NCBI GenBank assembly: GCA_006738865.1
Contig: AP019701.1
Location: 2,228,001 to 2,292,000 of the forward strand
Source of the DNA: Allostella sp. ATCC 35155
GTDB taxonomy: Bacteria; Pseudomonadota; Alphaproteobacteria; ATCC43930; Allostellaceae
DNA length: 64,000 bases
Direction: 5' to 3'
The notes under the pieces were generated by a model, which made no database searches, was not told the origin of the DNA, and was given only the letters and a program-made list of their open reading frames with translations. Made by a program: the position numbers and the translations under genes. Shown one piece after another: positions 26,984 through 51,245 of this stretch (position 1 is its first letter; every line of letters starts with the position of its first letter).

Positions 26984-27008
26984 GGGGGCCGCCCGCAAGG
27001 CGACCCCC
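26984..27008 (-). terminator. Attenuator-like hairpin between tctC and tctB
   Basis: GGGGGCCGCC (26984-26993) pairs with GGCGACCCCC (26999-27008) with one C/A mismatch and a 5-nt loop, just after the tctC stop. On the minus strand it is followed by a pyrimidine-rich run. It likely lowers permease expression relative to the binding protein. Confidence 0.5.
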
Positions 27009-27015
27009 TCCGGGA

Positions 27016-28029: not shown

Positions 28030-28113
28030 GAATGGCCTCCCCGAAGGCATCGTTGAGGTCGTGATCGTTCCGTTCCTTTGCCCCATCCGTCAAGCCGCAT
28101 CGCCCGCCGCGTG

Positions 28114-29984: not shown

Positions 29985-31432
29985 ACGGGGCGGGACTGAA
30001 CGCCGAGGCGGTCACGGTCGAGGCCGTCGAACTCTTCGAATGGCCGTACCGGCTGCGCCTGCCGTTCCGCTTCGGCGTCATCACGGTGACGCATGGCCGG
30101 CAGGCGGTGCTGCGCGTGCGCATCCGCACCGCCGACGGCCGGACGGCCGAGGGCATGGCGGCCGAGGCGCTGGCCGCCAAGTGGTTCGACAAGAACCCGG
30201 ATGTCAGCGACGCGCAGAACCTGGAGCAGCTTCGCCTGGCGCTGGAGATTGCGTCCGGCCTCTACCGGGCGAGCACGCCGCGCACGCCCTTCCGGCTCTT
30301 CGCCGACCACTATGCCGACCAGATCGCCGAAGGCGCGCGGCGCGGGCTGCCGCCCCTGGTCGCGAGCTACGGACCGGCGCTGCTCGACCGCGCCGTCGCC
30401 GACGCGCTCTGCCGGGCCCGCGGCGTCAACTTCTACGAGGCCGTCCGCCGCAATCTCCTCGGGATCGAGGCGCACCCGATCGTGCCCGACCTCGCCGAAT
30501 TCGACCTGGGCCCGTTCCTCGGCAGCCTCGCCCCGTCCGACCGCATCCATGTCCGGCACACGGTCGGGCTCGTCGACCCGATCACCGCCGCGGACCAGGC
30601 CGAGGGAACGCGCGTGGAGGACGGGCTGCCGGAGACGCTGGAGGAGGTCGTCGCGACCTACGGGCACCGCTACTACAAGCTGAAGGTCGGCGGGAACGTC
30701 GCCGCCGACGTCGACCGCCTCGCCCGGATCGCGGGCGTGCTCGACCTCCAGGGGCACGACTATGCCGTTTCGCTCGACGGCAACGAGCAGTATGCCGACG
30801 AGGGCGCGGTGCTCGAACTGTGGCGGGCGATGCGGGCCGAGCCGCGGCTGCGCCGCCTCGTCGCCTCGATCCTCTATATCGAGCAGCCGATCAAGCGGCA
30901 GAACGCGCTTTCGGCGCCGGTGACGAAGCTGGCGGCCGAGCGCCCGGTCATCCTCGACGAGTCCGACGGGGAACTCGATGCCTTTCCGGCCGGCCGCAGC
31001 CTCGGCTATCGCGGCGTCTCCTCGAAGAACTGCAAGGGGTTCTACAAGTCGATCCTGAACCTCGCGCGCTGCCGCATGTGGAACGGCCTCGAAGGCGAGG
31101 GAACCTACTTCATGTCGGCCGAGGATCTGACGACCCAGGCGGGCCTGTCGGTGCAGCAGGACCTGGCGCTGGTCAACCTGCTCGGCCTCGTCCATGTCGA
31201 GCGCAACGGCCATCATTTCATCGACGGCTTCGCCGGCCGGCCCGAAGCCGAGGCCCGGGCCTTCCTGGCCGCCCATCCGGACCTCTATCACGAGCAGGAC
31301 GGACGGGTGCGGATGCGCATCACGGCGGGCGAGGCGCACATCGGCTCGCTTGCCTGTCCCGGGTTCGGGGCGGCCGCCGCTCCCGATGTCGCGGCGATGG
31401 AGCCGATGAAGCGCGCGGAGTGGGCCGGATAG
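29975..31432 (+). CDS. Enolase-superfamily enzyme (mandelate racemase/muconate-lactonizing-like)
   Basis: The superfamily removes the alpha proton of a carboxylate to dehydrate, racemise or cycloisomerise it. Metal and base residues are visible as 'YYKLKVGGN' (Lys), 'VSLDGNEQY' (Asp), 'LYIEQPIKR' (Glu) and 'VILDESDGE' (Asp/Glu), then 'GVSSKNCKGFYKS' (Lys). At 485 residues it is about 100 longer than typical members, with extra sequence in the N-terminal half (about residues 60-190). The ATG at 29975 has GAGGAG 8 nt upstream; an ATG at 29981 is possible. A sugar-acid dehydratase role fits its neighbours, but this is inference. Confidence 0.85.
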   Translation: MAMNGAGLNAEAVTVEAVELFEWPYRLRLPFRFGVITVTHGRQAVLRVRIRTADGRTAEGMAAEALAAKWFDKNPDVSDAQNLEQLRLALEIASGLYRASTPRTPFRLFADHYADQIAEGARRGLPPLVASYGPALLDRAVADALCRARGVNFYEAVRRNLLGIEAHPIVPDLAEFDLGPFLGSLAPSDRIHVRHTVGLVDPITAADQAEGTRVEDGLPETLEEVVATYGHRYYKLKVGGNVAADVDRLARIAGVLDLQGHDYAVSLDGNEQYADEGAVLELWRAMRAEPRLRRLVASILYIEQPIKRQNALSAPVTKLAAERPVILDESDGELDAFPAGRSLGYRGVSSKNCKGFYKSILNLARCRMWNGLEGEGTYFMSAEDLTTQAGLSVQQDLALVNLLGLVHVERNGHHFIDGFAGRPEAEARAFLAAHPDLYHEQDGRVRMRITAGEAHIGSLACPGFGAAAAPDVAAMEPMKRAEWAG

Positions 31433-31491: not shown

Positions 31492-33210
31492 TCAGGCAGG
31501 CGGCCGACCGTCGTGCGACAGGACGCCGAAGCCCAGCGGTGGCAACACCAGCCCAGCCTCCTTGCGGGTCGCGACGCAGCCCGGTGCCGGTACGCAGCTC
31601 CACCCGCAAGCTGCCGGGAACAGGCGCTCATCCAGGCTGAAATTGACAATGCAGCGCAGCGTCATCCGGTCGTCGAAGCGATCGTAGCCGAGCAGCGGCG
31701 CGAGCTTGGCGCCGTGGACGATCTCGCCACCCCACTTCAGTACCGGCTGCTCATGCCGCCACGCCACGAACTGCCGGAGGAAGGCTAGGGTCGAGTCCGG
31801 GTCCGCCTCCTGGCGGTCGACGGCGAGCGGCCGATGCTCCTGCGGTACTGGCAGCCAGGGGTCGGAAGCTTCCGTGAAACCGGCGTGCGGCGCATCGGCG
31901 ATCCAAGGCATCGGCGTGCGGCCGCCGTCACGACCCTCGAAGTCGGGCCAGAGCGCGAGGCCCCAGGGGTCGCGCAGCGCCTCCCTCGGCAGCTTGGGAT
32001 GCGGCAGGCCCAGTTCCTCGCCCTGAAAGATGGCGCAGCCGCCCTTCAGCGTCAGTTGCAGGAACAGGAGCATTCGCGCCGCCGCCGGTCCCTGCCCGGC
32101 ATCGATGGCGAAGGCGGCGAGGTTCGAGAGCGCACGCCTCGAGTCATGGTTGGTCAAGACGTTGTAGAGCCAGCCCGTCCGCTGATACGCGTCGCGCCTC
32201 TGCAGGATCGCGGCAAGATTGCCGACTTCGGCCGGGCCGTTGATAAGGTCAAAATCATAGATGGCATGGAAGGCCTTGCCCTCGGCGGTGTATTTTTCCG
32301 CGGCGCGCGAGGAATCGACGTCCGCCAGTTCGCCGATCAATATGCGTTCGGGCAGGTAGTCCGACACGGCGTCCCGCAGCCGTTGCAGGATCGGCATCGC
32401 CTCGGGCACGTCCCGGTCGAACTCGTGGAGTTGGCGGCGGAAGGGGTTGTTCGGCCCGCCGCCGAGCAGGATGGGCGATCCGGCGCGCGGCGAGGGCGGG
32501 TTCGACCGGAACTCCGGGTCGCAGGCGAGGCACTGGACGGCATCGAGGCGGAATCCGTCGACGCCGAGATCGAGCCAGAAGCGCATCTCGCCGATGACGG
32601 CGTCGAGCACCGCCGCGTTCTGCAGGTTCAGCGCCGGCTGACAGGCAAGGAACGGGTGGTAGTAGTACTGGCCGCGTCGCGGCTCCCATTCCCAGGCCCC
32701 GCCACCGAAGGAGGAGAGCCAGTTGTTGGGCGGGCAGCCGTCGCGCGCCGCGTCGGCCCAGACATACCAGTCGGCCCGAGGATTGGTCCGGTCGGAGCGG
32801 CTCTCGATGAACCAGGGATGCTCGTCGGACGTATGGGCCGGTATGAAGTCCAGAATCAGCTTCAGTCCGCGCGCATGCACCGCCTCCAGCAACTCGAGGA
32901 AATCCGCCATGGAACCGGCGACGGGATCGACATTGCGCAGGTCGGTGGCGTCGTAGCCGAAATCCTTCTGCGGCGAGGGGTAGAACGGCGACAGCCACAA
33001 TGCATCGACGCCGATGTCGGCGATGTGGTCGAGCTTCTCGATGACGCCACGGAGGTCACCGATGCCGTCACCGTCGCTGTCGCGGAAACTGCGCAGATAG
33101 ACTTCATAGATGACGGCGCCGCGCCACCAAACCGCATGCACCGGCGGCTCGCGCTTCGGCGCCATGGCATACTTCGCCAGCAGCGTCTCGCGGGTTTGCG
33201 CGCCGGTCAT
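31492..33210 (-). CDS. GH13 alpha-glucosidase-type hydrolase (second of a pair)
   Basis: A 572-residue family 13 glycoside hydrolase acting on alpha-glucosidic bonds. The (beta/alpha)8 barrel is clear: 'VIYEVYLRSFRDSDGDGIGD' at the start, 'LDFIPAHTSDEHPW', nucleophile D223 in GFRLDAVQ, acid/base E294 in LIGELAD and transition-state D356 in TNHDSRR. No signal peptide is seen, so it is probably cytoplasmic. The start overlaps the upstream GH13 gene by 4 nt. Maltose-type glucosidase or glucosyltransferase activity cannot be separated from sequence. Confidence 0.9.
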   Translation of the reverse strand: MTGAQTRETLLAKYAMAPKREPPVHAVWWRGAVIYEVYLRSFRDSDGDGIGDLRGVIEKLDHIADIGVDALWLSPFYPSPQKDFGYDATDLRNVDPVAGSMADFLELLEAVHARGLKLILDFIPAHTSDEHPWFIESRSDRTNPRADWYVWADAARDGCPPNNWLSSFGGGAWEWEPRRGQYYYHPFLACQPALNLQNAAVLDAVIGEMRFWLDLGVDGFRLDAVQCLACDPEFRSNPPSPRAGSPILLGGGPNNPFRRQLHEFDRDVPEAMPILQRLRDAVSDYLPERILIGELADVDSSRAAEKYTAEGKAFHAIYDFDLINGPAEVGNLAAILQRRDAYQRTGWLYNVLTNHDSRRALSNLAAFAIDAGQGPAAARMLLFLQLTLKGGCAIFQGEELGLPHPKLPREALRDPWGLALWPDFEGRDGGRTPMPWIADAPHAGFTEASDPWLPVPQEHRPLAVDRQEADPDSTLAFLRQFVAWRHEQPVLKWGGEIVHGAKLAPLLGYDRFDDRMTLRCIVNFSLDERLFPAACGWSCVPAPGCVATRKEAGLVLPPLGFGVLSHDGRPPA

Positions 33211-34835
33211 GGGCGTGTTCCGAAGAACGCCCCGTATGGGGGCAGGCTCAAGGTTTCGCCACTGCGGACGCTGCCGAAACCGTGGCCGTCGAGGGCCGGT
33301 CCCGTGACGGCTTCGGGAAAGGCGGCTTCCGCCTCCACGCCGCACAGATTGAAGGCGCAGAAGATGCGCTGATCGCCGAGGAAGCGTTCGAATGCCAGGA
33401 TCTGGGGGGGCGCCTCCATGAAGCGCAGGCCGCCCGCGCGCAGCGCGGGCTGCTCGCGACGCCATGCCAGGAAGCCCTTGAGGCGGTTCAGCAGCGAGCC
33501 CGGCAATGCCCTTTGCGCTGCCACTGCGCGCGGAATGTGACTTGCGGGGATCGGCAGCCAGGGCTCGTGGCTGCTGAATCCGCAATGCGGCAGGTCGCCA
33601 TCCCACGGCATCGGCGTGCGGGCCCCGTCGCGTCCGCTGAAGGCGGGATGGAACTCCGCGCCGTAGGGATCCATCATCCGCTCGGGCGGGACATCGGCAT
33701 GGGCAAGGCCAAGCTCGCTGCCCTGATAGATGCACAGTGCGCCGCGGAGGCATGACAGCGCCGCGAGGATGGCGAACGGCAGTTCGCCGGAGGCGGCGTC
33801 CGGCCCCAACCGTGTCGCCGAGCGCATGAAATCATGGTTGTCGAGTGCCCAGCACGGCCAGCCGCAGTCCATCTCGTGCCCGAGATCGGTGGCCGTACGA
33901 ATGATGGTTTGCGCGTCCATCGTATCGGCGCCGAGAAGCCAGTAGCCATAGGCGAGCTGCAGCCGGTTGGCGGCGGTGTATTCGGTGTGCAGCCGCACGG
34001 CCTCGTTCTCGTGCAGCTCGCCCAGCAGGAGGCGATCGGGATAGGTGTCCGTCAACGCGCGCAGGCGCTCCAGGAATGCCAGGTTCTCCGGCTGGCCGAT
34101 GTCGCGCTGGTGGTGTTGCAGCGAATAGGGGTTGAACATGAAGTGCCGAGCCGAGGAGCGCGCCGGATTGGGCGGATTGTCCCTCAGCTTGGCGTCGTGG
34201 AAATAGAAGGCGCAGACATCGAGGCGGAAGCCGTCGACCCCCATGTCCAGCCAGTAACGGGCGATGTCCAGGATCGCGTCCTGGACGTGCGGATTGTGGT
34301 AGTTGAGGTCGGGCTGCTCACGCAGGAAGTTGTGCAGATAGTACTGGCCGCGCCGTGGTTCCCACTGCCAGGAACTGCCGCCGAAGACCGATAGCCAGTT
34401 GTTGGGCGGCGCGCCGTCCGGGCGGGGATCGGCCCAGACATACCAGTCGGCCCGAGGGTTCTGACGGTTCTCCCGGCTTTCGAGAAACCACGGATGCTGG
34501 TTGGAAGTGTGGCTGAACACCTGGTCCATCAGCACCCGGAGACCGCGCTCATGGGCGGCCCCGAGCAGAGCCTCGAAGTCGTCGAGCGTACCGAAGAGCG
34601 GGTCGACGCTCCGATAGTCCGATACGTCATAGCCGAAATCGCGCATGGGCGACTTCACGAAGGGCGAGATCCACACCGCGTCCGCGCCGAGGCCGGCGAT
34701 GTGATCGAGCTTGCGCCGGATGCCGTCGAGATCGCCTACGCCATTGCCGGTGGTGTCGAGAAAACTGCGTGGGTAGACCTGATAGATGATGGCCCCTTGC
34801 CACCAGTCATGGCGGCTCGTGCCGGAAACACCCAT
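33207..34835 (-). CDS. GH13 alpha-glucosidase (first of a pair)
   Basis: A 542-residue family 13 enzyme close to oligo-1,6-glucosidase/alpha-glucosidase. The start is 'WWQGAIIYQVYPRSFLDTTG'; nucleophile D206 lies in GFRLDVCAF, acid/base E273 in LGELHE, and D335 in LDNHDFMRSA. Region I reads DQVFSHTSNQH where most relatives have DxVxNH, a Ser in place of the usual Asn. It lacks a secretion signal. It is paralogous to the downstream GH13 gene, sharing for example 'NPRADWYVWAD' and 'PPNNWLS', so the pair probably arose by tandem duplication. Confidence 0.91.
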   Translation of the reverse strand: MGVSGTSRHDWWQGAIIYQVYPRSFLDTTGNGVGDLDGIRRKLDHIAGLGADAVWISPFVKSPMRDFGYDVSDYRSVDPLFGTLDDFEALLGAAHERGLRVLMDQVFSHTSNQHPWFLESRENRQNPRADWYVWADPRPDGAPPNNWLSVFGGSSWQWEPRRGQYYLHNFLREQPDLNYHNPHVQDAILDIARYWLDMGVDGFRLDVCAFYFHDAKLRDNPPNPARSSARHFMFNPYSLQHHQRDIGQPENLAFLERLRALTDTYPDRLLLGELHENEAVRLHTEYTAANRLQLAYGYWLLGADTMDAQTIIRTATDLGHEMDCGWPCWALDNHDFMRSATRLGPDAASGELPFAILAALSCLRGALCIYQGSELGLAHADVPPERMMDPYGAEFHPAFSGRDGARTPMPWDGDLPHCGFSSHEPWLPIPASHIPRAVAAQRALPGSLLNRLKGFLAWRREQPALRAGGLRFMEAPPQILAFERFLGDQRIFCAFNLCGVEAEAAFPEAVTGPALDGHGFGSVRSGETLSLPPYGAFFGTRP

Positions 34836-35020: not shown

Positions 35021-35803
35021 TCAAGGCCGAACCTGATGACGGTCGCCGGTCCTTCTCGCCAGATAGTAGCCGTAGCCGACATGGGCCGCGTTCCGTTCGT
35101 AGAGCGCGATCTCGAACTCCTCCGCCGCGACGATGGCGGACGCGGCCGCCGAGGGGCCGTTGCGCGCGAGGAACCCCGCGAAGCGGGCCTGCATCGGGCG
35201 GTAGTAGTTCTCGAGCCAGCACCGTTCCGGCAACGCGAAGTACCCGATCGGGGCGTAGCCGTTCGCCTCCAGGACGGCGATCTTGGCGGAGGCCGTGGCC
35301 ACCTCCGGATACTGCTCCCGCCAATGTCGCTCGAGCTCGGCCGGCCGTTCGCTCGTCAGCCAGGTCAGTTCCGATACCGCCAGGATGCCGCCCGGCTTCA
35401 GGTGCCGCCGCCACGACTGGATTCCGGCGGCGAACCCCATGTTGTAGATCGCGCCCTCCGACCAGATCGCGTCGAGCGAGCGGTCGGGAAATGGCAGCGC
35501 CTCCATCGCGGCGGAGCGGGTCTCGATGCGTTCGTCCAGACCCGCCTGCCCGGCGGCGCGGTCGAGTACCTGGAGAAACTCCGGAACGAGATCGACCGCG
35601 GCCACCGTGACGTCGAGTTCCTGCGCGAGCACCAGGGCCGAGGCGCCGGTGCCGCAGCCGATGTCGGCGATCTTCAGGCCCTTGGCGCTGCGCAGACCCG
35701 ACAGGGCGACGGCAAGTCGGGTTTCCTCGTCTCCGCCTGGCCCCTGGCGCGCGGCATGCCGGTGGAGGTCGACGAGCAGGCGGAGATGGTCCGCACCCGT
35801 CAC
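35021..35803 (-). CDS. Class I SAM-dependent methyltransferase
   Basis: The 260-residue methyltransferase has the SAM motif KIADIGCGTGASALVLAQ, then 'VDLVPEFLQVLDRAA' and 'LDAIWSEGAIYNMGF'. The start is GTG at 35801-35803, in a GTGA overlap with the stop of the upstream VOC gene. The target is unknown. Its length and the 'SELTWLTSERPAELERHW' region suggest a small-molecule methyltransferase rather than an rRNA enzyme. It is the last gene of the long minus-strand set from 43054. Confidence 0.87.
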   Translation of the reverse strand: MTGADHLRLLVDLHRHAARQGPGGDEETRLAVALSGLRSAKGLKIADIGCGTGASALVLAQELDVTVAAVDLVPEFLQVLDRAAGQAGLDERIETRSAAMEALPFPDRSLDAIWSEGAIYNMGFAAGIQSWRRHLKPGGILAVSELTWLTSERPAELERHWREQYPEVATASAKIAVLEANGYAPIGYFALPERCWLENYYRPMQARFAGFLARNGPSAAASAIVAAEEFEIALYERNAAHVGYGYYLARRTGDRHQVRP

Positions 35804-36732
35804 TCCCACGGTGCCTTCGCGCCCTCCGGGATGAAGGCGATCTGGCCGCCGAGCGCGGGGCCGCCATCGACCAGCATCGCCATGCCCTTGTCGACATGGG
35901 GGATGAGGTTGGCGTCGAGATGGGCGCGCGTCGCCGCGAGGTCGGCCACGGTCAGCGCGTATGCGGCCATGCAGGGCAGGGCGGGGACGGGCGCGCCGAG
36001 CAGGCGCTGGGCGTGTTCCTGGCCGGTGACGACGATCGAGCCGCGGTCGAAGTCGAGCAGGTACGCCCCGTCGTCGCGCCGGACGGCCGGACGGCCGGTG
36101 TAGCGCGCGAAGCGCTCCGCCGCCTCCTCGGGGTCGTCGGAGGCGATGAGGATCGAGCCGAGGCCGGTCGCCCCGTTGGCATGGTCGAGCCAGCGGCCCT
36201 GCCACATGTTCTCGGGCGTCAGATGATTGCAGAACTGGACCCGGCCCTCCGGCATCGCCTCGGGCGGCACGCGCAGGACGCGGAAGCGGACATGGCCGGC
36301 AGCGCCGCTCTCGGTCTCGATCTCGCGCTCCAGCCGGACCACGGGCAGCGGCGCGAAGCCGGAGGCCTGGAGGCGCGCGGTCTCCGCGTCCGGGTCGGAG
36401 AGGCCGAACGCGATGAGGTGGACGCCGACATAGCGCGCCATCCCCGCCTTGAGGGTGCGGGCATTCGGCGTGTCGCCGGTCGTCGTCAGGATCTCGATGT
36501 AGCCCTGCCGCAGCATGATCGTGCGGTTGGCGGTTCCCGCCGATACCGGCGGCGCGTCGGGCGCGGCGCGCGTCACCTGGTGGGAGAAGGGCGCCATCGT
36601 GAAGCCCAGGGCATCGAGGCGGGCCGAGGCGGCCGGCTCGTCCGGCACCCAGTGCGCGAGATGATCGAGGACGAACGCGCCCTGGCTCGGAACCTGGCGG
36701 GCGGCGATGGCGGCGGCTTCGGTCGGGTTCAT
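35800..36732 (-). CDS. VOC superfamily / glyoxalase-like protein
   Basis: The 310-residue protein has two vicinal-oxygen-chelate halves. The first starts 'FVLDHLAHWVPDEPAASARL' and contains 'NRTIMLRQGYIEIL'; the second contains 'GLGSILIASDDPEEAAERFA' and 'IAFIPEG'. Such proteins include glyoxalases, dioxygenases and isomerases. Possible metal residues are H in 'VLDHLAHW' and E in 'YIEILT'. It is coupled by 4-nt overlaps to the membrane protein gene before it and the methyltransferase after it. The reaction is unknown. Confidence 0.82.
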   Translation of the reverse strand: MNPTEAAAIAARQVPSQGAFVLDHLAHWVPDEPAASARLDALGFTMAPFSHQVTRAAPDAPPVSAGTANRTIMLRQGYIEILTTTGDTPNARTLKAGMARYVGVHLIAFGLSDPDAETARLQASGFAPLPVVRLEREIETESGAAGHVRFRVLRVPPEAMPEGRVQFCNHLTPENMWQGRWLDHANGATGLGSILIASDDPEEAAERFARYTGRPAVRRDDGAYLLDFDRGSIVVTGQEHAQRLLGAPVPALPCMAAYALTVADLAATRAHLDANLIPHVDKGMAMLVDGGPALGGQIAFIPEGAKAPWE

Positions 36733-37550
36733 GGCATGGCCTCCGGGCTGGGATGGATCGACCGCCGGCGGGCGCGGCGGCGGCCGGCGAGGGCGATGAA
36801 GGTCGAGGCGATGGCGGCGACGCCGATCGCGGCGGCGAGCGCCGGCAGCGCGCCGATCGGCATGATGAGGGAATAGAGCGTCACGAGATAGGCCACGAAG
36901 GACAACATCCCGACGGTGCTGGCCAGCAGGGTCGCGGCCGCTGCGCCGCCGCCATGGCGCCGGTGCATGATGAAGGCGATGGCGGTGAAGGCGGTCGGGA
37001 ACGCCATCAGGACGCCGGTCGCCTCGGGGCCGATGAGGGCGCTGATGCTGACCACGCTGGCGATGATGCCGCCGGTGATGAGAGCCCGGCCGACGAGTTC
37101 GACCCCGGATATGCCGACGGGCCGCGGCGGCGGCTTCAGGCCCGGCGGCCGCGGCACCAGGATCGCCGCGGCGAAGGCCGCCAGCGTCAAGCCCAGGGCC
37201 GACCAGAGCTGCAACGGCAGCAACTGTACGACGTAGCCGACGCCGCACCAGACGAGCAGCGCCCCGCCGATGCTCGCGAACGCTCCGAAGCGCACGGCCA
37301 GTCGTGGATAGACGATGAGGAAGACGGCGATCGCCGCGCTCATCGCCAGGGTGTAGAGGACGCTGTCGGCGACGAAGCGGTCTTCGGCCTGCAGCGCCAG
37401 GAAGAACATGCCGGGGCCGGAGGAGATCGGCAGGCTGATGATGACACCGCCGAGCAGGGGCCCGGATCGCTCCGCCACCACCGAGGCAGTCACCACCACC
37501 GCCGCGGTGAGGACCATCTTCACCAGCAGCATGCCGAGTTCGATCAGCAT
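36729..37550 (-). CDS. Integral membrane protein of unknown family with an internal repeat
   Basis: I do not recognise this family. The 273-residue protein has about eight to nine hydrophobic segments. Residues 29-50 (SGPLLGGVIISLPISSGPG...) and 173-194 (IGPEATGVLMAFPTAFTAI...) share the pattern GP-x3-G-V-x4-P, which suggests an internal duplication as in small transporters. The C-terminus is basic (GRRRARRRS). It overlaps the VOC gene by 4 nt and follows aspartate dehydrogenase by 13 nt, so it probably moves a metabolite of that pathway. Confidence 0.8.
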   Translation of the reverse strand: MLIELGMLLVKMVLTAAVVVTASVVAERSGPLLGGVIISLPISSGPGMFFLALQAEDRFVADSVLYTLAMSAAIAVFLIVYPRLAVRFGAFASIGGALLVWCGVGYVVQLLPLQLWSALGLTLAAFAAAILVPRPPGLKPPPRPVGISGVELVGRALITGGIIASVVSISALIGPEATGVLMAFPTAFTAIAFIMHRRHGGGAAAATLLASTVGMLSFVAYLVTLYSLIMPIGALPALAAAIGVAAIASTFIALAGRRRARRRSIHPSPEAMP

Positions 37551-37563
37551 TGCGCGTGCAGGG

Positions 37564-38382
37564 TCAGCTGCCGACGGTGATCGGGTCCACGAGGCTGCGC
37601 AGTGCCGCCAGGATGCTGGGCGCGACGATGCGGCTGGTGCGCGGATTGGTCGGCGACGGCCGGTTGCGGCTGATCAGGGTGAGGTCCGCATCCTCCGCCT
37701 CGACGTCGACCTGGTGGACCGTGCCGGCGATGTCGGGGTCGCAGAATACGGTGATGCGCGTCCGGTCGAAGCCGATGCCGCCGAGGCTGAGCGTGATGGC
37801 GACGTTGAAATGGCGGGGGAAGGCGGCGGCGGCCTCGCCGGCGCTGCCGTCGAAGACCTGTACGGCGGAGGCGGGTGGCGTCGAGAAGTCGAAGCCGCGA
37901 TCCAGGATATAGGGCTCGTGCGCCAGCGAGTTCGGGCGCAGCCGCGTCGTCAGGCGGACGGAGCGGATCGTGCCTTCCTTGACGCTGCGGATGATGTCGA
38001 GCCCGGGTAGGGCGCCGCTCGCGACCTTGACGCGGCCGCCATGGGTGCGCGCCAGCTCGAGCAGCTCGGGGCAGTTCGGCAGCCCGCCGACGCTGACGGC
38101 GACGAGCAGCCGCCCGGCGCCGACGACGGTGCGCGCGATCTCCGGAAAGGATTCGGCGGTGGCGCACTCGACGACGACGTCGGCATGGGCCGGCAGTTCG
38201 GCCAGCGGCACGATGGCGAGGCCGGGGGCGATCGCGGCGGCGTTGGCGGCGGCCTTTCCGAGGTCGCGGGCGCTGGCGGCCGTCAGGGAGATTTCGGGGA
38301 TGGCACCCGCGGTGAGGCGGCGGGCGAGATCCTGGCCGACATTGCCGAACCCGGCGAGTCCGACGCGCAGTGTCTGGGGCAT
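37564..38382 (-). CDS. Aspartate dehydrogenase family protein
   Basis: Family enzymes reversibly convert L-aspartate to oxaloacetate/iminosuccinate with NAD(P). The 272-residue product has the Rossmann motif GLAGFGNVGQDLA, 'VVECATAESF' and 'SGALPGLDIIRS', and a C-terminal 'NVAITLSLGGIGFDRTRI'. H223 in 'GTVHQVDV' matches the position of the family's catalytic histidine. No nadA or nadC is nearby, so a catabolic role with the TRAP transporter and racemase is more likely than NAD synthesis. That role is inference. Confidence 0.88.
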   Translation of the reverse strand: MPQTLRVGLAGFGNVGQDLARRLTAGAIPEISLTAASARDLGKAAANAAAIAPGLAIVPLAELPAHADVVVECATAESFPEIARTVVGAGRLLVAVSVGGLPNCPELLELARTHGGRVKVASGALPGLDIIRSVKEGTIRSVRLTTRLRPNSLAHEPYILDRGFDFSTPPASAVQVFDGSAGEAAAAFPRHFNVAITLSLGGIGFDRTRITVFCDPDIAGTVHQVDVEAEDADLTLISRNRPSPTNPRTSRIVAPSILAALRSLVDPITVGS

Positions 38383-38443
38383 GGAGAAGGGGCTTCCGTG
38401 GCGGGGCGAGCGATCATGCCGCCCCGCCGCCGGCAGGCTGTCC

Positions 38444-39208
38444 TCAGAGCGTCAGCCCGCCGTCGACATGGACGACCTGGCCGGTAACGTAGCTCGCATC
38501 GGGCGAGAGAAGGAAGCTCACCATGGCCGCGATCTCGTCGGTGCGGCCGATGCGCCCCAGCGGAATGCGCTCGGAGACCATCGCCCACTGCTCGGGCGTC
38601 AGCGAGGAGTGGGTGCCCGGCTCCTTCTCGACATAGCCGGGGGCGACGACGTTGACCGTGACGCCCTTGGGCGCCAGCTGGATCGCCAGCGACTTGGCGA
38701 GCCCCTCGAGCCCGGCCTTGGCCGATGCCGATGCCGGGAAGATGCCGCCGCCCAGCCGGAAGACATGGGCGAGGAAGGTGCTGATCGCGACGACCCGGCC
38801 CGCCTTCGACTGTTCGAGATGCGGCAGCGCCGCCGTCGCCAGCCGGAAGAACGCCTTCTGGATGGCCGCGATCGACTCCTCGTATGCCGCGATGTCGAGT
38901 TCGCCGAAGCGGCGGCGGTCCGCGAACCCGGCATTGGAGACGATCCCGTCGAGGCCGCCGAAGCGGTCGACGGCGGTGGCCACCAGGCGCAGGGCGGTGT
39001 CGTTCTGGGTCAGGTCGCCCAGCAGCTCGACGACCTCGGCACCGCCGGCACGGGCGGCCGCCGCGACCCCGGCGAGGCCGGCTGCATTGGCCTTGGTCGT
39101 CAGCACGAGGTTGGTGCCGGGCGCGGCGAGGCGGCGGGCGATCGCCTTGCCGATGCCGGTGGCGGCGCCGGTCAGCAGGACGGTGCGGGTGGCGGGCGTT
39201 TCGGTCAC
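38444..39208 (-). CDS. Short-chain dehydrogenase/reductase
   Basis: The 254-residue SDR has [15 protein letters not shown], '[14 protein letters not shown]', and a catalytic '[25 protein letters not shown]'-type region. The usual Tyr-x3-Lys is not obvious here: the sequence reads PASASAKAG, so the tyrosine position seems to be replaced while the lysine stays. '[14 protein letters not shown]' and '[13 protein letters not shown]' complete the fold. It overlaps the TRAP permease gene by 4 nt. The missing tyrosine makes normal SDR catalysis doubtful. Confidence 0.86.
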
Positions 39209-41115
39209 TTTCTGGCCTCGACTGGGGCGGGGGAGGCGCCGACCCGGCCGAGCGCGAAGAACTGCGGCAGCCAGATCAGCAGGGCCAGCACCGCCGCCAG
39301 GGCGGCGATGCGCGGCCAGACGTCATAGCTTTCCAGCAGGACGACGACCAGGGCGAAGAGCGCCAGGGGCGGCCGCCACAGCGGGTGGACCGGGGCGCGG
39401 CAGAACCCGAACATGGCGGCTGCCAGCAAGGTCAGCCCGATCAGGTTGACCGCGACCTGGGCCACGACCTCTTCCACCGGGCCGATCATCATCAGGCTGG
39501 GCGTGTAGAGGTAGCTGTAGCCGATGATGAAGCCGGCGAGCGCCAGCCGGAAGGCGACCAGCCCGGTCTGCATCGGCTCGGCCTTGGCGATGGATGCCGC
39601 GGCGTAGGACGCGACCGAGACGGGCGGCGTCGCGTCCGCCAGGATGGCGAAATAGAAGACGAAGAGGTGCGCGCCCAGCACCGGCACGCCGAGATTGACC
39701 AGGATCGGCGCCCCGATCGAGGCGCCGATGATGTAGGCGGCGGTCGTCGGCACGCCCATGCCGAGGATCAGCGTCGTGAACATCAAGAGCACGCCCGCGA
39801 TGAAGAGGTTGCCGTCCGACAGCGAGGTGATGATGGTCGACAGCGAGATGACGAGGCCGGTGACCGTGAGACAGGCGACGAACATGCCGGCGCCGGCGCA
39901 GGCGAGCGCCACCACCACCATGTTGCGCCCGCCGGCCTCGAGGATGTTCCAGATCTGGCGCGGGCCGAGGCGCGTGTGCCGGCGCAGCCAGGTGCAGAAG
40001 AACACCGTCACGATCGACCAGAACGCCGAGAAGTGCGGCGAATAGTGAAACGCCATCAGGGTCAGGAGCACGAGGATCGGGATCAGCAGGTGCAGGTCGT
40101 GGACGACCGCCTTCCAGGGCGGCACATCGGCCTCGGCCACGCCCTGGAGGCCGAGCCGCTTGGCCTCGAAATGGACGCTGATCAGGATCATGAAGAAGTA
40201 GCAGACCGCGCCGATCGTCGCCGCGATCAGGATCTGCGTGTAGGGAATGTTCGTGATCTCGGCCATCACGAAGGCGCCGGCGCCCATCACGGGCGGCATG
40301 ATCTGGCCGCCGACGCTGGCCGCCGCCTCGACACCGCCGGCGAACGGCCGGCGATAGCCGAGCCGGATCATCGCCGGGATCGTGAACGATCCGGTGGTGA
40401 AGACGTTGGCGGTCGAGGAGCCGCTGATCGTTCCGAAGAAGGCCGAGCTGACCACTGCGACCTTGCCCGGCCCGCCGGACTGGCGGCCGGCGATGCGGGT
40501 GCCGGCGTTGTGGAACAGGCGACCGATGCCGCTGCCCTCGATGAAGGCGCCGAAGATGATGAAGATGGCGACCATCGTCGACGAGATGCCGGTGATCGAG
40601 CCGAAGATGCCCATGCCGTTCAGCAGGTACATCGTCTCGACGATCTCCGACGTCGCCAGGTTCCGGTAGTTGAGGATGCCCGGCATGTATTCGGTGGTGA
40701 AGAGATAGGCGATGCCGATGGTCACCAGGCCGGCCAGCACCGGCGTGACCGCGCGGCGCAGCGCCTCCAGCAGGAGGACCGTCAGGATCGCGCCCCAGAT
40801 CCATTCGCCGAGCAGCAGCGGGTCGACATTCTCGAAGCGCAGGTTGATCCGCGGCGATTCCAGGTAGGAGTAGATGCAGGATCCGATAGCGAGCGCCGCC
40901 ATCGCCCAGTCCGGCAGGCTGGGGCGATCCTCGGGCGAGCGCCCGGGTCGGGCGGGGTAGAGCATGAAGGCCAGCGGCAGCAGCAGGCCGAGATGGATCG
41001 AGCGCTGCTCGCGCGGCTCGAAGAAGCCGTACCCCGACGTGTAGAGATGGAACAGGGTCGCCGTCGCGGCCCAGATGCCGATTGCGACGGCGGTCGGTCC
41101 CGTCAGACGGCGCAT
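39205..41115 (-). CDS. TRAP transporter fused permease (TAXI type)
   Basis: The 636-residue membrane protein fuses the small (4 TM) and large (12 TM) TRAP permease parts, as found with TAXI-type binding proteins. Marks are the N-terminal hydrophobic quartet (about residues 1-140), '[18 protein letters not shown]', '[21 protein letters not shown]' and '[18 protein letters not shown]', then '[19 protein letters not shown]'. It uses an ion gradient to import carboxylates or amino acids. A strong hairpin separates it from the binding protein gene upstream. Confidence 0.93.
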
Positions 41116-41146
41116 TGCGCTTCTCCTGTCGCTGCCGAAAACAGAA

Positions 41147-41173
41147 CGACCCCGCCCAGGGTGGGCGGGGTCG
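41147..41173 (-). terminator. Attenuator hairpin between TAXI binding protein and TRAP permease
   Basis: A perfect 12-bp stem (CGACCCCGCCCA with TGGGCGGGGTCG) closes a 3-nt loop. On the minus strand it is followed by TTCTGTTTT. This is the best intrinsic terminator in the accessory region, and it lies inside the operon, so read-through must feed the permease. Confidence 0.75.
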
Positions 41174-41190
41174 TGCGGGAAAGGGTCAGC

Positions 41191-42159
41191 CTAGGAGCTG
41201 AAGCCCTTTTCCTTGTAGTACTTCATCGCGCCGGGGTGGACGGGGACGGGCTGCACCTTCACCGCCGTCTCGCACTTGAAGACCTTCATGCTGGCATGGA
41301 TCTTCGGCAGCTCGGCGGTGCCTTCGCAGAGGGTCTTGGTCACCTTGTAGGCGATGTCCGCGCTCAGGTCGGCCGAGGCCATCAGCGTCGTCGCCATCAG
41401 GATGGCCGGCACGTCGGCGGTCTGGAACGCCGGGTAGGTGGTCTTGGGGAAGGTCGCCGGCGAATAGCCGTACTTCTTCATCAGGGTGTCGGCCAGCGGC
41501 TTCGGCCACGGCATCAGTTCGCCGGCGCGGCCGGTGCCCATGTCGATCACGGCGGCGCCGGGAATCCCGAGCACCAGGAAGATGTAGTCGACCTGGCCGT
41601 CCTTGTAGGCCGAGGCCAGCTCGTTGTAGTCGCCCTGGACGATCTTCCAGCCGTTCGACCGCTGCTTGTCGTAGCTCTGACCGTACTCCTCCATGACGAA
41701 GCGGTAGGTCATCTCGTCCGACGAGCCGGCCTTGGTCACGCCGATCTTGATGTTCTTCTGCTTGAACACGTCCTCGAAGCTGTGCGGTGCGTCCTTGGCC
41801 TTGAGGAAGTGGACGTAGTTGTCCGAGAAGCTCTGGCCGATCATCACGACCTTGTCGTGCTTGCGGCCCTTGTAGATGCCGCTGCCGTCGCGCGCGGCCT
41901 TGGCGAAGATGTCGAGGCCCATGCCGAGCTGGCTCTGGCCCTGCTGGATCTTCGACGGGTTGGCGGTGCCGCCGCCCGGCACGACCTTGACGGTCAGGCC
42001 CGGGTTCTTGTCCTGCATCATCTTCGCCATGCCGGACGACATGGTGTACCAGCCACCGCCGAGCTGCCCGGCGACGAACTCGATCGTCTGGGCCGACGCA
42101 TGGCCGGTGAAGGTGAGAGCCGCGCCGATCCCGGCCACCAGCAGCGAATTGCGCATCAT
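41191..42159 (-). CDS. TAXI family TRAP transporter solute-binding protein
   Basis: The 322-residue periplasmic protein captures substrate for the fused permease. A signal peptide (residues 1-23, ending GHASA) is followed by 'FVAGQLGGGWYTMSSGMAKM', 'VVPGGGTANPSKIQQGQSQL' and 'KIGVTKAGSSDEMTYRFVM'. The start is the first of two adjacent ATG codons at 42159 with GGGAGA upstream. TAXI proteins bind amino acids such as glutamate or other carboxylates. An aspartate/glutamate-type ligand would fit the neighbouring racemase and dehydrogenase. Confidence 0.92.
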   Translation of the reverse strand: MMRNSLLVAGIGAALTFTGHASAQTIEFVAGQLGGGWYTMSSGMAKMMQDKNPGLTVKVVPGGGTANPSKIQQGQSQLGMGLDIFAKAARDGSGIYKGRKHDKVVMIGQSFSDNYVHFLKAKDAPHSFEDVFKQKNIKIGVTKAGSSDEMTYRFVMEEYGQSYDKQRSNGWKIVQGDYNELASAYKDGQVDYIFLVLGIPGAAVIDMGTGRAGELMPWPKPLADTLMKKYGYSPATFPKTTYPAFQTADVPAILMATTLMASADLSADIAYKVTKTLCEGTAELPKIHASMKVFKCETAVKVQPVPVHPGAMKYYKEKGFSS

Positions 42160-42274
42160 CGTCCGTCTCCCGTCTTGTCTCCGGCGCGGAGAACCCGCGC
42201 CGGCAGAGCCTGTTGTTCGGCCGATCGGCATTGCAAGCCCTGGGCCGCCGCCTGTCAATTGCCGACGACCGCGG

Positions 42275-43054
42275 TCATGCGTCGCTGCCGCGCTCGCGCC
42301 ATGGGCGGGGCGCGCTGGCGGGATGGCCGAAGTCCCGCGGCGACAGGCCGCCGTGGAACCAGGTGACGAAGCTGTAGATGTCGAACACCGGCAGGCCGAC
42401 ATGGGCCCGCAGGGCGGCCGCGTAGGGCGCCATGTTGGTGCATTCGAGAACGATCGCGCCGATCGCCGGGTCGCTCGCGGCCAGCCTGGCGCCGAATTCA
42501 AGGATGTCCGCCTCGGCCGCCGCGACGTCCATCACGGGCTCGTTCTCGATGATGGCGCGGGTGAACTCGCGCCCGCCGTCGGTGCCCATCACGGGGGTGG
42601 CCGGGTCGACCCCGGCCGCGGCGAGGTGGGCGTCGGTCATGGAGGCGGCGCTGATCGTCAGGATGCCGACCTTGCGGCCGGGCGGCAGCGTCGCCTGCAC
42701 CATCGGCACCTGCATCAGGCTCGAGGTCGCGACCGGGACGCCGACATGGGCGGCGAGCTCGCGCTGGTAGAGCGACAGGAACCCGCAGTTCGTGGTGATG
42801 CCGTCCGCCCCCAGGCGGACCAGTTCGGCGGCCGCTTCGAGGAAGTCCGGCAACAGCCCCTCGGCCTTGCGCCGGACGACCCGGTCGGGCGAGGCCCCGG
42901 ACACCACCTTGTAGAGCACCGGAAACGGCCAGGTGCGGGCATTGCCCATGTCCCCCGGGATGCGCGGAAACTGCGCCTCCAGCATGAGGATGCCGAGGCG
43001 GGCGCCGAAGACCGCCTTGCCGCCATGGGCGATACGCGAACCGGTGGAAGCCAT
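42275..43054 (-). CDS. Aspartate/glutamate racemase family protein
   Basis: The 259-residue protein belongs to the PLP-independent Asp/Glu/hydantoin racemase superfamily, which also includes maleate isomerases and arylmalonate decarboxylases. The two active-site cysteines are present: C90 in 'ITTNCGFL' and C205 in 'VLECTNMAPY'. The N-terminal 'ARLGILMLEAQFPRIPGDMG' is characteristic of a subgroup with unclear substrates. It heads the set racemase, TAXI-TRAP, SDR, aspartate dehydrogenase. Confidence 0.87.
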   Translation of the reverse strand: MASTGSRIAHGGKAVFGARLGILMLEAQFPRIPGDMGNARTWPFPVLYKVVSGASPDRVVRRKAEGLLPDFLEAAAELVRLGADGITTNCGFLSLYQRELAAHVGVPVATSSLMQVPMVQATLPPGRKVGILTISAASMTDAHLAAAGVDPATPVMGTDGGREFTRAIIENEPVMDVAAAEADILEFGARLAASDPAIGAIVLECTNMAPYAAALRAHVGLPVFDIYSFVTWFHGGLSPRDFGHPASAPRPWRERGSDA

Positions 43055-43093
43055 GGATGATCGTCCGATCGGGTTGCCGAAACGGCCGCCAAT

Positions 43094-44674
43094 CTAGAAG
43101 TGCGCCGGTGCCGGGACAATGGCGGCTGGCTCGCCGGCGGCCACGCGCATCGCCGCGTCGACGGCGTCCTCGGAATAGTGCTCCCGGATCAGATCGAGGC
43201 CGGCGGCGGATACCATCCGGTTGGCGGCCTCGTCATCGTGCAGCCGCAGGATCCGCGCCACGATCCTGGAAACCTCGTCGGCAACGAGGCGGCGCAGCAG
43301 CGGCTGCAGCGGAATGCCTTCGGCCGCGACGGTCGTGAGCACGCAGGGCAGCCCGGCGGCCAGGCTGTCGAGCACCTTGCCCTTCAGCCCCGCGCCGAAG
43401 CGGAGCGGCGCCACCGTCAGCCGCACCTCCTGCAGAACGGCGCGGAGATCGTCGACCGGCCCCAGAATGCGCATGCCGGGCGGCGGTACCCGCCGCAGGC
43501 TGTCCGGCGGGTTGCTGCCGACGACGACGCATTCCAGGTCGGGTCGGACCGTGCGGAGCGCCGGGAGGATCTCGCGGCCGATCCAGGACACGGCGTCGAC
43601 GTTCGGGGCATGGTCGAAGCCGCCGACGAACGCGATGCCGCGCCGCCGGCCGAAGTCCGCAGGCGGCGGTGCCGGGACCAGCGACCAGGGGATCGTGTGG
43701 ACCGGGGTCCGCGGCACCGCTTGCCTCAGAAGATCGGTCTCGACGGTCGAATGGGTGATGACCGCGTCGGCGCGCCGCGCCGCGACGAACTCGATCTTCT
43801 TCATGCGCCGGCTGTTGTGCAGCAGGTCCGGGTCGCCGGAGATGGCGGCCTGCCGCTCCAGTCGCAGATGATGCAGGTCGCAGACGCCGTAGAGCAGCCG
43901 CGCCGCCGGGCAATGGCGCCGCACCAGACCGAGATAGGCGTCGGCGCTCGGCCCCCGGTAGAGATAGATCAGCCCGGCCGATGGACCCTGCCGGCGCAGC
44001 ATCTCCTCGATCGAGCCGTAGGCCGGCCAGCCGAGCCAGGCGATGCCATTGTCGGCAAGCGCTGCGAGCGCCCGCGGGTCGGGTGGCGCACCCGCCGCCG
44101 TCAGCCCGACGGACCAGCCCAGGCGGCGGAGGGAGCGCATGTGCGCCATGATGGCCACTGCCCCGGCGTGGCGGGTGGGATCGGGTGCGAACTCGTCGAT
44201 GACGATGGCCCGGGGGGCCCCGGCCTCGCCCGACCGGTCCGCCTCGCGGTCGAGGCGCCGCGCCTGCCAGGCGAGGAACGCAGCCACCGACCGCCGCTCC
44301 TCCGCCGACGCGACGGCGTCGACCGCGCTGGCGACCCTGCGCTTGAGCCGGTCGTCGAAGGCACCGGCGTGATCGAGCCAGATCGGAGAACCGGGAGCGT
44401 GCTCGCCGTCGGGTTCGGCGCGGATCGAGATGCTGTGCCGGCGATCGGCGGAAAGATGGCTGGGAAAGCGGAACTCGAACGCATGACGGCCGTCGCCGAT
44501 GCCGGCTCTCTCGAGGTCTTCGCGATAGCGGTCGGCCCGCACGCGTGCGACGGGGTGCCCGTCGACCGTGATGCGGAGCACGACGCCGCTGTCGGGATCG
44601 CCCGGCCGGTGGACCCAACCGGAAATGCCATAGCGCGTCGCGCGGTCGATGGACCCTTGCAGAGGTTCTGCCAT
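43094..44674 (-). CDS. Glycosyltransferase (GT4-like) with N-terminal accessory domain
   Basis: The 526-residue protein has two parts. Residues about 7-75 form a small beta domain ('YGISGWVHRPGDPDSGVVL', 'VARVRADRYREDLERAGIGDG'), a module I recall being attached to sugar and polysaccharide enzymes. The rest resembles a GT-B glycosyltransferase, with 'RRGIAFVGGFDHAPNVDAVS' at about 345-365, 'MRILGPVDDLRAVL' and 'VAPLRFGAGLKGKVLDSLAA', then 'PCVLTTVAAEGIPL'. The acceptor is unknown. It is divergent from the aconitase X genes and not clearly linked to them. Confidence 0.85.
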   Translation of the reverse strand: MAEPLQGSIDRATRYGISGWVHRPGDPDSGVVLRITVDGHPVARVRADRYREDLERAGIGDGRHAFEFRFPSHLSADRRHSISIRAEPDGEHAPGSPIWLDHAGAFDDRLKRRVASAVDAVASAEERRSVAAFLAWQARRLDREADRSGEAGAPRAIVIDEFAPDPTRHAGAVAIMAHMRSLRRLGWSVGLTAAGAPPDPRALAALADNGIAWLGWPAYGSIEEMLRRQGPSAGLIYLYRGPSADAYLGLVRRHCPAARLLYGVCDLHHLRLERQAAISGDPDLLHNSRRMKKIEFVAARRADAVITHSTVETDLLRQAVPRTPVHTIPWSLVPAPPPADFGRRRGIAFVGGFDHAPNVDAVSWIGREILPALRTVRPDLECVVVGSNPPDSLRRVPPPGMRILGPVDDLRAVLQEVRLTVAPLRFGAGLKGKVLDSLAAGLPCVLTTVAAEGIPLQPLLRRLVADEVSRIVARILRLHDDEAANRMVSAAGLDLIREHYSEDAVDAAMRVAAGEPAAIVPAPAHF

Positions 44675-44807: not shown

Positions 44808-46082
44808 ATGCGATTGACGGCAGCGGAACAGCGAATGCTCGACGGCGGCGACGGGCCGGCGAAGCAGAAGGCGATGGCGGGGCTGGTCCAGCTCGGCCGC
44901 GCCTTCGGGGCCGAGCGGATGGTGGAGATCGGCTATGCCCACATCCATGCCGGCATGGCGCTCTATCTTCACGACGTCGAGCTGATGGAGGATCTGGCCG
45001 AGCTCGGCGCCACCATGGCGGTGCCGTCCTCCGTCAACATCGCCAATGCCGACACCGTCAACTGGCAGGCAACCGGCGCGCCGGAGAAGTTGGCGCGCCT
45101 GCAGCAGCGCGCGGCCGACGCGCAGAATCGCATGGGCGCCGCCTGCACCTTCACCTGCACGCCCTACTGGGCCGGCCACTGGCCGACCTGGAACACGCAC
45201 ATGACCTCGATCGAATCGACGGTCACCATCTTCTGCAACTCGGTCCTCGGTGCCCGCAGCAACCGCGACGGCTTCTTCGCGGTCTATGCCGGGATCACCG
45301 GCCGCTATCCGCTCTTCGGCTATCATCTCGACGAGAACCGGCGCGGCACGCACCTGGTGCGGGTCGACACGCCGCTGCGCTCGATCACCGACTTCTCGGC
45401 GCTTGGCTTTCATGTCGGCCGTATCGTCGGCGAGGGCGTGCCCGTCTTCGAAGGCTTCGAGCGCCGGCCGAGTCTCGACGAACTCGACGCGCTGGGGGCC
45501 GCGCTGGCCACTTCCGGCGGCGTCGCGCTCTTCATCGTTCCGGGCGTCACGCCGCCCTATGCGACGGCGGCGCAGGCCTTCGGCGGCCGCGTGCCGGACG
45601 AGGCGGTGGACGCGCGCCGGGCCGACCTCGACGCCGTCTACGACTATTTCTGCACCCGCGACGACGGGGTCTTCGACATCGTCCATGTCGGCTGCCCGCA
45701 TGCCTCCTTCGAGGAGATGAAGGAGTATGGGCGTCTGCTCGACGGCCGCCGGATCGCCGACGGCATGGAGCTGTGGGTAACGACCAGCCGGCCGGTGCGC
45801 CGCATGGCCGAGGAAGCCGGCATCGTGCGGACGCTGGAGCGGGCAGGGGCCAAGGTGATCTCCGACACCTGTCCGATTTCCTGCCACTTCGCCCGCACCG
45901 TGTCGCCCGATCCCGAACTGGGGGTCGTGCCGCCGCCCCTGCGGGCGATCGTCGTGGATTCGGCCAAGCAGGCGAAGTACGTCCGCGACATGATCCGCTG
46001 CGACACGCTGCTGACCGGCACTGCGGAGGCCATCGAGACGGCGCTCACCGGGCGCTTCGTCCGCCACGGGAGGGCGGCATGA
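44808..46082 (+). CDS. Aconitase X catalytic (large) subunit
   Basis: Aconitase X enzymes are iron-sulfur dehydratases; characterised bacterial members dehydrate cis-3-hydroxy-L-proline. The 424-residue protein shows 'IGYAHIHAGMALYLHDVELM', 'MAVPSSVNIANADTVNW', 'CTFTCTPYW', 'CNSVLGARSNRDG', 'VGCPHASFEE' and 'SDTCPISCHFA'. Candidate cluster ligands are C113, C296 and C355. It overlaps the small subunit gene by ATGA. The substrate is inferred only from the family; neighbours do not include a clear proline-pathway reductase. Confidence 0.9.
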   Translation: MRLTAAEQRMLDGGDGPAKQKAMAGLVQLGRAFGAERMVEIGYAHIHAGMALYLHDVELMEDLAELGATMAVPSSVNIANADTVNWQATGAPEKLARLQQRAADAQNRMGAACTFTCTPYWAGHWPTWNTHMTSIESTVTIFCNSVLGARSNRDGFFAVYAGITGRYPLFGYHLDENRRGTHLVRVDTPLRSITDFSALGFHVGRIVGEGVPVFEGFERRPSLDELDALGAALATSGGVALFIVPGVTPPYATAAQAFGGRVPDEAVDARRADLDAVYDYFCTRDDGVFDIVHVGCPHASFEEMKEYGRLLDGRRIADGMELWVTTSRPVRRMAEEAGIVRTLERAGAKVISDTCPISCHFARTVSPDPELGVVPPPLRAIVVDSAKQAKYVRDMIRCDTLLTGTAEAIETALTGRFVRHGRAA

Positions 46083-46489
46083 CGGGCTCCATCCGCGGGC
46101 GCGGCATCGTCGAGGGCCAGGCCTCCGGCCCGGTCCTGATCGCCGCGGAGGCGATCTCGTTCCTCGGCGACGTCGACATCAACACCGGCGCCATCGTCGG
46201 CGACCTGCCCAGTGTCCATGGCCGGTCGGTCAAGGGCACGGTGCTGGTCTTTCCCTACAGTCGCGGATCGGCCGGTGCCTGGCGCTTCCTCTACCAGCTG
46301 TTCAAGCACGGCAACCACCCGGTCGCGATCGTGACGCGTGACAGCCCGGACCCCAGCGTCGTGCAGGGCGCGATCCTGGCCGGCATCCCGATCGTGTCGG
46401 ACGTGCCGCAGTCCTTCTGGGGCAACATGCGTGACGGCGAGACAATCGCGGTCGACGGCACTTCGGGCGAGGTGAAGGCGATCGACTAG
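46079..46489 (+). CDS. Aconitase X swivel (small) subunit, DUF126
   Basis: The 136-residue DUF126 protein is the swivelling domain of two-subunit aconitase X. Visible marks are 'GRGIVEGQASGPVLIAAEAI', 'SFLGDVDINTGAIVGD', and 'FPYSRGSAGAW' (the Ser is a likely substrate-contact residue), then 'SDVPQSFWGNMRDGETI'. It is translationally coupled to the large subunit by a 4-nt overlap. Its stop lies in a CTAG shared with the convergent HPP/CBS gene. Confidence 0.9.
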   Translation: MTGSIRGRGIVEGQASGPVLIAAEAISFLGDVDINTGAIVGDLPSVHGRSVKGTVLVFPYSRGSAGAWRFLYQLFKHGNHPVAIVTRDSPDPSVVQGAILAGIPIVSDVPQSFWGNMRDGETIAVDGTSGEVKAID

Positions 46490-49969: not shown

Positions 49970-49982
49970 AGGGAATGCGGCA

Positions 49983-50939: not shown

Positions 50940-50981
50940 CGGCGCCCGAGACGCCGGCCCGCAACGACGGGCGGCGAACGC

Positions 50982-51245
50982 CTGGCGCTCGCGCTCCTCG
51001 CGCGCTTCCTACCCGACATGCCGAAGATCCTGTCCAGCTCGCGGATGCAGATCCACAAGGAGTTGGAGGAGGCGTCCCGCGTCTGCGGCCGCGGCACGCA
51101 GCAGACCATCCTGCGCATCGCGCTGCCGGTCGTCCGGCCCGATGTCGTCGCCGGCATGACGCAGATCTTCATCCTGGCGATCCGGGAACCGGGGCTGTCG
51201 AGCCTGCTGTCGCGCACGGTCTCGGGGGTGGTCGCGCGGTCGTGA
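50982..51245 (+). pseudogene. Remnant of an iron(III)-type ABC transporter permease
   Basis: In one frame the sequence reads 'LALALLARFLPDMPKIL', 'QIHKELEEASRVCGRG' (the EAA loop that contacts the ATPase), 'LRIALPVVRPDVVAGMTQIF', 'ILAIREPGLSSLL', then a stop at 51243-51245. This is the C-terminal third of an FbpB-like permease without most of its membrane part or a real start. It lies in the 398-nt gap before the second tctC. The rest of the gap (51246-51337) holds only the ribosome site GGGAGGAG of tctC. Confidence 0.7.

Follow-up and report, generated by a model that had tools for sequence, protein, structure and literature searches.

Organization of the locus

Stella are star-shaped bacteria of soil and water. 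Here we describe a catabolic gene module in Stella sp. ATCC 35155, in which a racemase, a TAXI-TRAP transporter and a protein resembling aspartate dehydrogenase (AspDH) are encoded next to an aconitase X (AcnX). The module lies in a stretch of 64,000 nt (the window), to which strands and coordinates refer unless another locus is named. The host genome is closed and comprises 5,339,096 bp (AP019701; PMC6687932), and the genus now bears the name Allostella (PMC12488387).

A preliminary description of this DNA had delimited eight minus-strand genes at 35021-43054, and these are indeed eight intact open reading frames (Table 1). Comparison of four Stella genomes (this strain and three others) nevertheless places the boundaries of the set elsewhere. 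The order racemase, TAXI, TRAP, SDR, AspDH-like protein, membrane protein, VOC protein is kept in all four, with one insertion: in G002, a metagenome-assembled genome (MAG) of the same genus, an enolase-superfamily gene separates the membrane protein from the VOC gene, within which the contig stops. A single eight-gene unit that includes the methyltransferase was rejected, because this gene is found in this strain alone; in the other three genomes it does not follow the VOC gene and has no ortholog (best other match, 36%). On the opposite side, a divergently oriented gene pair for the two AcnX subunits, at 44808-46489, lies upstream of the racemase in all four genomes and belongs to the set, from which the preliminary description had left it out. 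The glycosyltransferase gene between the racemase and AcnX was considered as a further member and rejected as well, since it occupies this position in this strain and S. humosa and is missing from it in S. vacuolata and G002.

From the racemase to the methyltransferase, the junctions measure +115 nt, +75 nt, a 4-nt overlap, +61 nt, +13 nt and two further 4-nt overlaps. The 13-nt gap and the largest gaps of about 60-115 nt are thus as first described, whereas the 4-nt overlaps number three (TRAP/SDR, membrane protein/VOC and VOC/methyltransferase) and not four. Such overlaps are frequent in the window, where they occur at 7 of 46 junctions between neighbouring genes on the same strand, and are therefore by themselves weak evidence of coupling; the conserved gene order is the stronger evidence.

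Table 1. Genes and sequence elements of the module and its immediate surroundings, in window coordinates
Feature	Position	Strand	Basis or remark
AcnX small subunit (swivel domain)	46079..46489	+	PF01989; general-base Ser in GSAGAW
AcnX large subunit	44808..46082	+	PF04412, 386 bits; HIHAGM at Asp203 site
Glycosyltransferase	43094..44674	-	PF13692; between racemase and AcnX, outside module
Promoter-like TTGTCC-N17-TAGATT, before racemase	43091..43119	-	leader alignment, by eye
Racemase, Asp/Glu superfamily, PRK07475 subfamily	42275..43054	-	NF005679, 318 bits (cut-off 231)
Promoter-like TTGACA-N17/18-TGCAAT, before TAXI gene	42230..42258	-	leader alignment, by eye
TAXI-family TRAP solute-binding protein	41191..42159	-	TIGR02122, 158 bits (cut-off 84)
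13-bp G+C hairpin with T-rich tail, between TAXI and TRAP	41146..41174	-	terminator scan
Fused TRAP permease	39205..41115	-	TIGR02123, 597 bits (cut-off 321)
SDR-fold protein	38444..39208	-	PF13561
G+C hairpin without T-run, between SDR and AspDH-like	38400..38428	-	strong fold in all four Stella genomes
AspDH-like protein	37564..38382	-	PF01958, 84 bits; PF03447, 38 bits; above Pfam cut-offs
Membrane protein	36729..37550	-	about 10 predicted helices
VOC (Glyoxalase_3) protein	35800..36732	-	PF13468, 99.7 bits
Methyltransferase	35021..35803	-	outside conserved module

The AcnX of the module

The nearest relative of both AcnX subunits in the PDB is the archaeal phosphomevalonate dehydratase. 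We mapped the residues of the large subunit on 7CNP/7CNR and those of the small subunit on an alignment with the TkAcnX small subunit, using AtAcnX numbering and taking the residue roles from PMC8184944. The protein retains the general-base Ser, and also the residues that bind the cluster, the carboxylate and the 3-hydroxyl group, namely the three cluster Cys (273, 449 and 508 sites), Glu292, Ser293, Lys530 and Tyr534 (roles from PMC8184944). The sites for the proline nitrogen and ring, in contrast, carry His, Met, Gly and Leu, and not the residues that define activity on cis-3-hydroxy-L-proline. With the archaeal mevalonate-5-phosphate dehydratase (type IIb), the module AcnX shares separate subunits, the three cluster Cys, the general-base Ser and a Leu at the Trp35 site; it departs from it at the substrate residues, where Thr63(S) is replaced by Ala and Asn53(L), at the phosphate site, by Tyr, as well as in an Ala47-to-His exchange and in its catabolic context.

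This residue signature is identical in all seven of the module loci, and different in an unrelated plasmid AcnX. Types IIc-IIf show none of the landmark residues of the two known activities (PMC8184944, Watanabe 2021), and the function of the unassigned bacterial type II subclasses has been stated to be an open problem (PMC8184944). As judged by residue pattern, the Stella AcnX has the substrate residues of neither characterised activity and in this resembles these subclasses.

The AspDH-like protein and the racemase

The preliminary description identified the dehydrogenase of the set as aspartate dehydrogenase, which is accurate at the level of Pfam domains only. The protein falls below all eight NCBIfam AspDH cut-offs (best score, 223 against 253 bits), and a maximum-likelihood tree places it outside the canonical clade, in a separate clade of 18 rows (support 100/100, stem 1.04); the 19 rows outside this clade are AspDH by similarity only. 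Within the clade, the motifs FPRH.NVA and (S/W)RN.PS replace FPAN.NVA and ENIPS, the window protein reading FPRHFNVA. The His of the DP...H motif, which is catalytic in AspDH, is conserved in the alignments. A gene of the MmgE/PrpD family lies within six genes of 10 of the 18 clade rows and of none of the 19 others (p ~1e-4); since four of the clade rows represent the same Stella cluster, not every row counts as an independent case. A conserved protein group that carries the "aspartate dehydrogenase" domain is thus probably mislabelled.

The racemase has two Cys of the catalytic type, of which, across 20 homologs, C205 is invariant and C90 is found in at least 90%. The model predicted for it is confident (pLDDT 88.6) and shares its fold with arylmalonate decarboxylase and with hydantoin and aspartate racemases; TM-scores are about 0.5-0.6 and sequence identities 11-18%.

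Transporter and accessory proteins

The binding protein and the fused permease both score above the cut-offs of their families, which makes the transporter a member of the TAXI-TRAP group; relatives of the binding protein in the PDB are 1us4 and 8u79. One further label of the preliminary description calls for comment. The SDR-fold protein is not a classical SDR oxidoreductase, as the catalytic Tyr of the YxxxK motif is gone in all six orthologs, with Ser at the position Lys-4 and Phe in the column of the FabG Tyr; an SDR subfamily that lacks its catalytic Tyr is thereby brought to notice. The membrane protein, which had been left unexplained along with the methyltransferase, is kept in place in the four Stella genomes, has homologs of 29-46% elsewhere and gave no Pfam match; its predicted model (pLDDT 50) was not used. 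The remaining family labels hold, and the VOC protein is also encoded in module loci L069 and L073.

Occurrence beyond Stella

Conserved clustering in other genomes, whose absence would by the preliminary description have refuted its proposal, is found not only as the kept order in Stella but also as recurrence elsewhere. Homologs of the AcnX large subunit that are 72-79% identical occur in non-Stella genomes, beside racemase and AspDH-like genes or in the same genome as these, and the small subunit adjoins the large one in seven of seven module loci, the window being excluded from this count. AcnX, racemase, MmgE/PrpD and AspDH-like genes adjoin one another in the MAG contigs L033 and L035, and L034 carries the racemase (at the contig edge), MmgE, AspDH and TRAP. 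In genome G123 (L069), a single 11-kb stretch encodes TAXI, TRAP, MmgE, both AcnX subunits, an enzyme dependent on thiamine diphosphate (TPP), the racemase, the VOC protein, an enolase-superfamily protein and the AspDH-like protein. The same genes are spread over three contigs in G409 (L068, L070 and L071), each at or near the contig start, together with TctA/TctB, a Tyr-less SDR and a SoxA/2Fe-2S/DAO oxidase trio.

In a sample of 386 genomes of the class, three have a close AcnX and five a member of the AspDH-like clade, and all three are among the five (chance ~1e-6). A sample of 379 from the phylum yielded no close AcnX beyond the class. The AspDH-like gene also adjoins amino-acid ABC transporters in the independent operons L061, L062 and L104; in Shinella, where we called the genes ourselves, MmgE is followed by the AspDH-like gene, the TPP enzyme, an amino-acid ABC transporter and GntR. 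The best PDB relative of the linked MmgE/PrpD protein is iminodisuccinate epimerase. The association of AcnX, the racemase and the AspDH-like protein is thus kept across unrelated alphaproteobacteria, and MmgE/PrpD, a TPP enzyme and amine oxidases often accompany them. A literature search for this gene combination returned nothing. We conclude that the module is a real and conserved catabolic unit, while AcnX-containing catabolic clusters as such are already known.

Proposed substrate and pathway

The module probably serves to import and break down an unusual nutrient that is acidic and resembles an amino acid. Our preferred reading, to which we assign a probability of about 0.45, is that this nutrient is an amino (di)carboxylate with a hydroxyl group or another substituent at position 3. 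That the substrate is an amino compound is suggested by the AspDH and racemase families and by the amino-acid ABC transporters in the independent operons; its acidic nature is suggested, less strongly, by the relationships to AspDH and iminodisuccinate epimerase. The proposal of the preliminary description, uptake and breakdown of an amino dicarboxylate, is thus retained in its general form.

From the protein families, we infer the following sequence of steps. The TAXI-TRAP importer would bring in the 3-substituted compound, and the racemase would correct its configuration at C2, assisted in the relatives by the MmgE/PrpD protein resembling iminodisuccinate epimerase and by the enolase-superfamily protein. 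AcnX, with its [4Fe-4S] cluster, would then dehydrate the 3-hydroxy acid to an enamine/imine or a 2-oxo acid. Lastly, the AspDH-like enzyme would reduce (or form) an imino acid with NAD(P)(H), giving an ordinary amino acid or a 2-oxo acid that could enter central metabolism. A more specific proposal, which we regard as possible though rather doubtful, is that the AcnX represents a new subclass and the AspDH-like protein a new clade of related reductases, and that the two together form a route free of pyridoxal phosphate (PLP) that converts 3-hydroxy amino dicarboxylates, e.g., stereoisomers of 3-hydroxyaspartate, to ordinary amino acids.

Known systems offer partial parallels. The L-hydroxyproline gene cluster (LhpI AcnX, LhpD/LhpH reductases, LhpJ, LhpBEF) likewise combines AcnX with an NAD(P)-linked putative imine reductase, and relatives of the module share with it an LhpJ-like enolase-superfamily gene and the SoxA/2Fe-2S/DAO oxidase trio. 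The module differs from that cluster in its AcnX, which is without the cis-3-hydroxy-L-proline residues, in its TAXI-TRAP importer, and in having an Asp/Glu-superfamily racemase and an AspDH-like protein in place of a proline racemase and a pyrroline-2-carboxylate reductase; neither a proline-racemase-family epimerase nor the latter reductase was found among the module proteins searched. The chemistry envisaged, from a hydroxy amino acid via an imine to an amino acid, is that of the beta-hydroxyaspartate cycle (BhcA-D), except that AcnX and the AspDH-like protein would stand in for BhcB and BhcD. As to the PLP-dependent BhcA-C, no PLP family was found among the module proteins searched, a search that did not extend to PLP enzymes in the rest of the genome. 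To the iminodisuccinate epimerase route, the link is the MmgE/PrpD protein of the relatives, which is closest to that enzyme among solved structures; the window operon differs in having no MmgE, and no C-N lyase was recognised nearby.

A second cluster lies 2 Mb away (L047, G000:C1:229000-247000; 4254-9027). It encodes a TPP enzyme, MmgE/PrpD and a paralog of the AspDH-like protein (68% identical), followed downstream by an Opp-type ABC transporter, to which S. vacuolata adds an MlrC-type M81 peptidase and TctA/TctB. Such a cluster, with the AspDH paralog and MmgE, occurs in each of the four Stella genomes and includes the TPP gene in the three closed ones.

Several observations weigh against a 3-substituted amino (di)carboxylate as the substrate. 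MmgE, the TPP enzyme and the amine oxidase are not in the Stella operon itself, and with the MmgE and TPP genes in the separate second cluster, each cluster may have a substrate of its own. The transporter type differs between loci (TRAP, TctABC, Opp-type, amino-acid ABC), and the Tyr-less SDR has no clear role in the pathway. Substrate and activities are moreover assigned from protein families, and the AspDH-like step may run in either direction.

Alternative substrates

The linked MmgE/PrpD and oxidase genes bear on another possibility: the compound taken up may be an N-substituted amino dicarboxylate, such as an opine- or iminodisuccinate-like chelator. Epimerases would then balance the stereoisomers, amine oxidases would split the C-N bond in the relatives, and the AspDH-like protein and AcnX would process the halves. 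Beyond the kinship of MmgE/PrpD with iminodisuccinate epimerase, this agrees with the SoxA-like, 2Fe-2S and ThiO-like oxidase trios in L068 and L072, with an opine-oxidase-like neighbourhood on pAt that includes a racemase and AspDH, and with an Opp/Nik-type binding protein in the second cluster that is weakly similar to CntA. We nonetheless consider it unlikely: the Stella operon is without the oxidase trio, AcnX requires a 3-hydroxy acid, which such compounds generally lack, and MmgE/PrpD membership leaves the substrate unfixed.

Alternatively, the AspDH-like protein might act oxidatively, converting an imported amino acid to a 2-oxo acid, which the TPP enzyme encoded in the second cluster would then decarboxylate, with AcnX reserved for a side stereoisomer. 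A TPP enzyme indeed adjoins or lies near AspDH-like or racemase genes in L047, L061, L069, L070, L087 and L104. Since the window operon has no TPP gene and AcnX is there the closer and tighter partner, this variant appears less plausible still.

The original suggestion that D-aspartate or maleate-like dicarboxylates are degraded by the racemase and a true aspartate dehydrogenase agrees with Asp_Glu_race and Asp_DH_C both scoring over their Pfam cut-offs. It is not specifically supported and is in our view very improbable, given the position of the AspDH-like protein below the NCBIfam cut-offs and outside the canonical clade, the distance of the racemase subfamily from aspartate racemases, and the AcnX, which it leaves unexplained.

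For one AcnX of the kind that has no assigned function, the module provides an operon with its transporter, enzymes that are candidate partners, and a concrete candidate pathway. With these at hand, substrate screens can be small and directed.

Promoter-like sites and hairpins

Upstream of the racemase, the -10 hexamer of the promoter-like site is conserved, and the -35 nearly so, in three of the four Stella genomes; in this strain, the -10-like element shares bases with the stop codon of the glycosyltransferase gene inserted there. Both hexamers of the site before the TAXI gene are found in all four leaders. An automatic promoter scanner, which requires A as the second base of the -10, called no promoter. 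A sigma-54-like site before the TAXI gene (GG/GC core, 9-10 of 12 matches in the four leaders) was also considered and set aside, the overlapping TTGACA-N17/18-TGCAAT being conserved at least equally. The hairpin between TAXI and TRAP is present in all four genomes, with stems that differ in sequence.

Taken together, the conserved promoter-like sites and the TAXI/TRAP hairpin make one uniform transcript, and with it a uniformly expressed eight-gene unit, unlikely. A promoter of its own is probable for the TAXI gene, which is followed by a hairpin, an arrangement that would provide the binding protein in excess over the permease and the enzymes. The internal promoter-like sites and hairpins, and the absence of the membrane protein and SDR from some relatives, might also be taken to mean that the genes are mere neighbours that act separately, which is the least probable explanation of all in view of the order kept in four genomes and of the AcnX-racemase-AspDH grouping that recurs in distant alphaproteobacteria.

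Other features of the window

Four further gene groups were noted, mostly by eye. An overlapping pair at 23224-23870 resembles a VapC (PIN) toxin and an AbrB-type antitoxin. At 24885-31432, a second transporter set is followed by GFO/IDH-like, isomerase-like and enolase-superfamily genes, which together resemble a sugar-acid cluster (by eye, partly with Pfam). Two tandem alpha-amylase-like genes with a 4-nt overlap occupy 31492-34835. Beyond AcnX, the region 48752-54304 appears to encode a CaiB-like CoA transferase, an HMG-CoA-lyase-like protein and a tripartite tricarboxylate transporter set.

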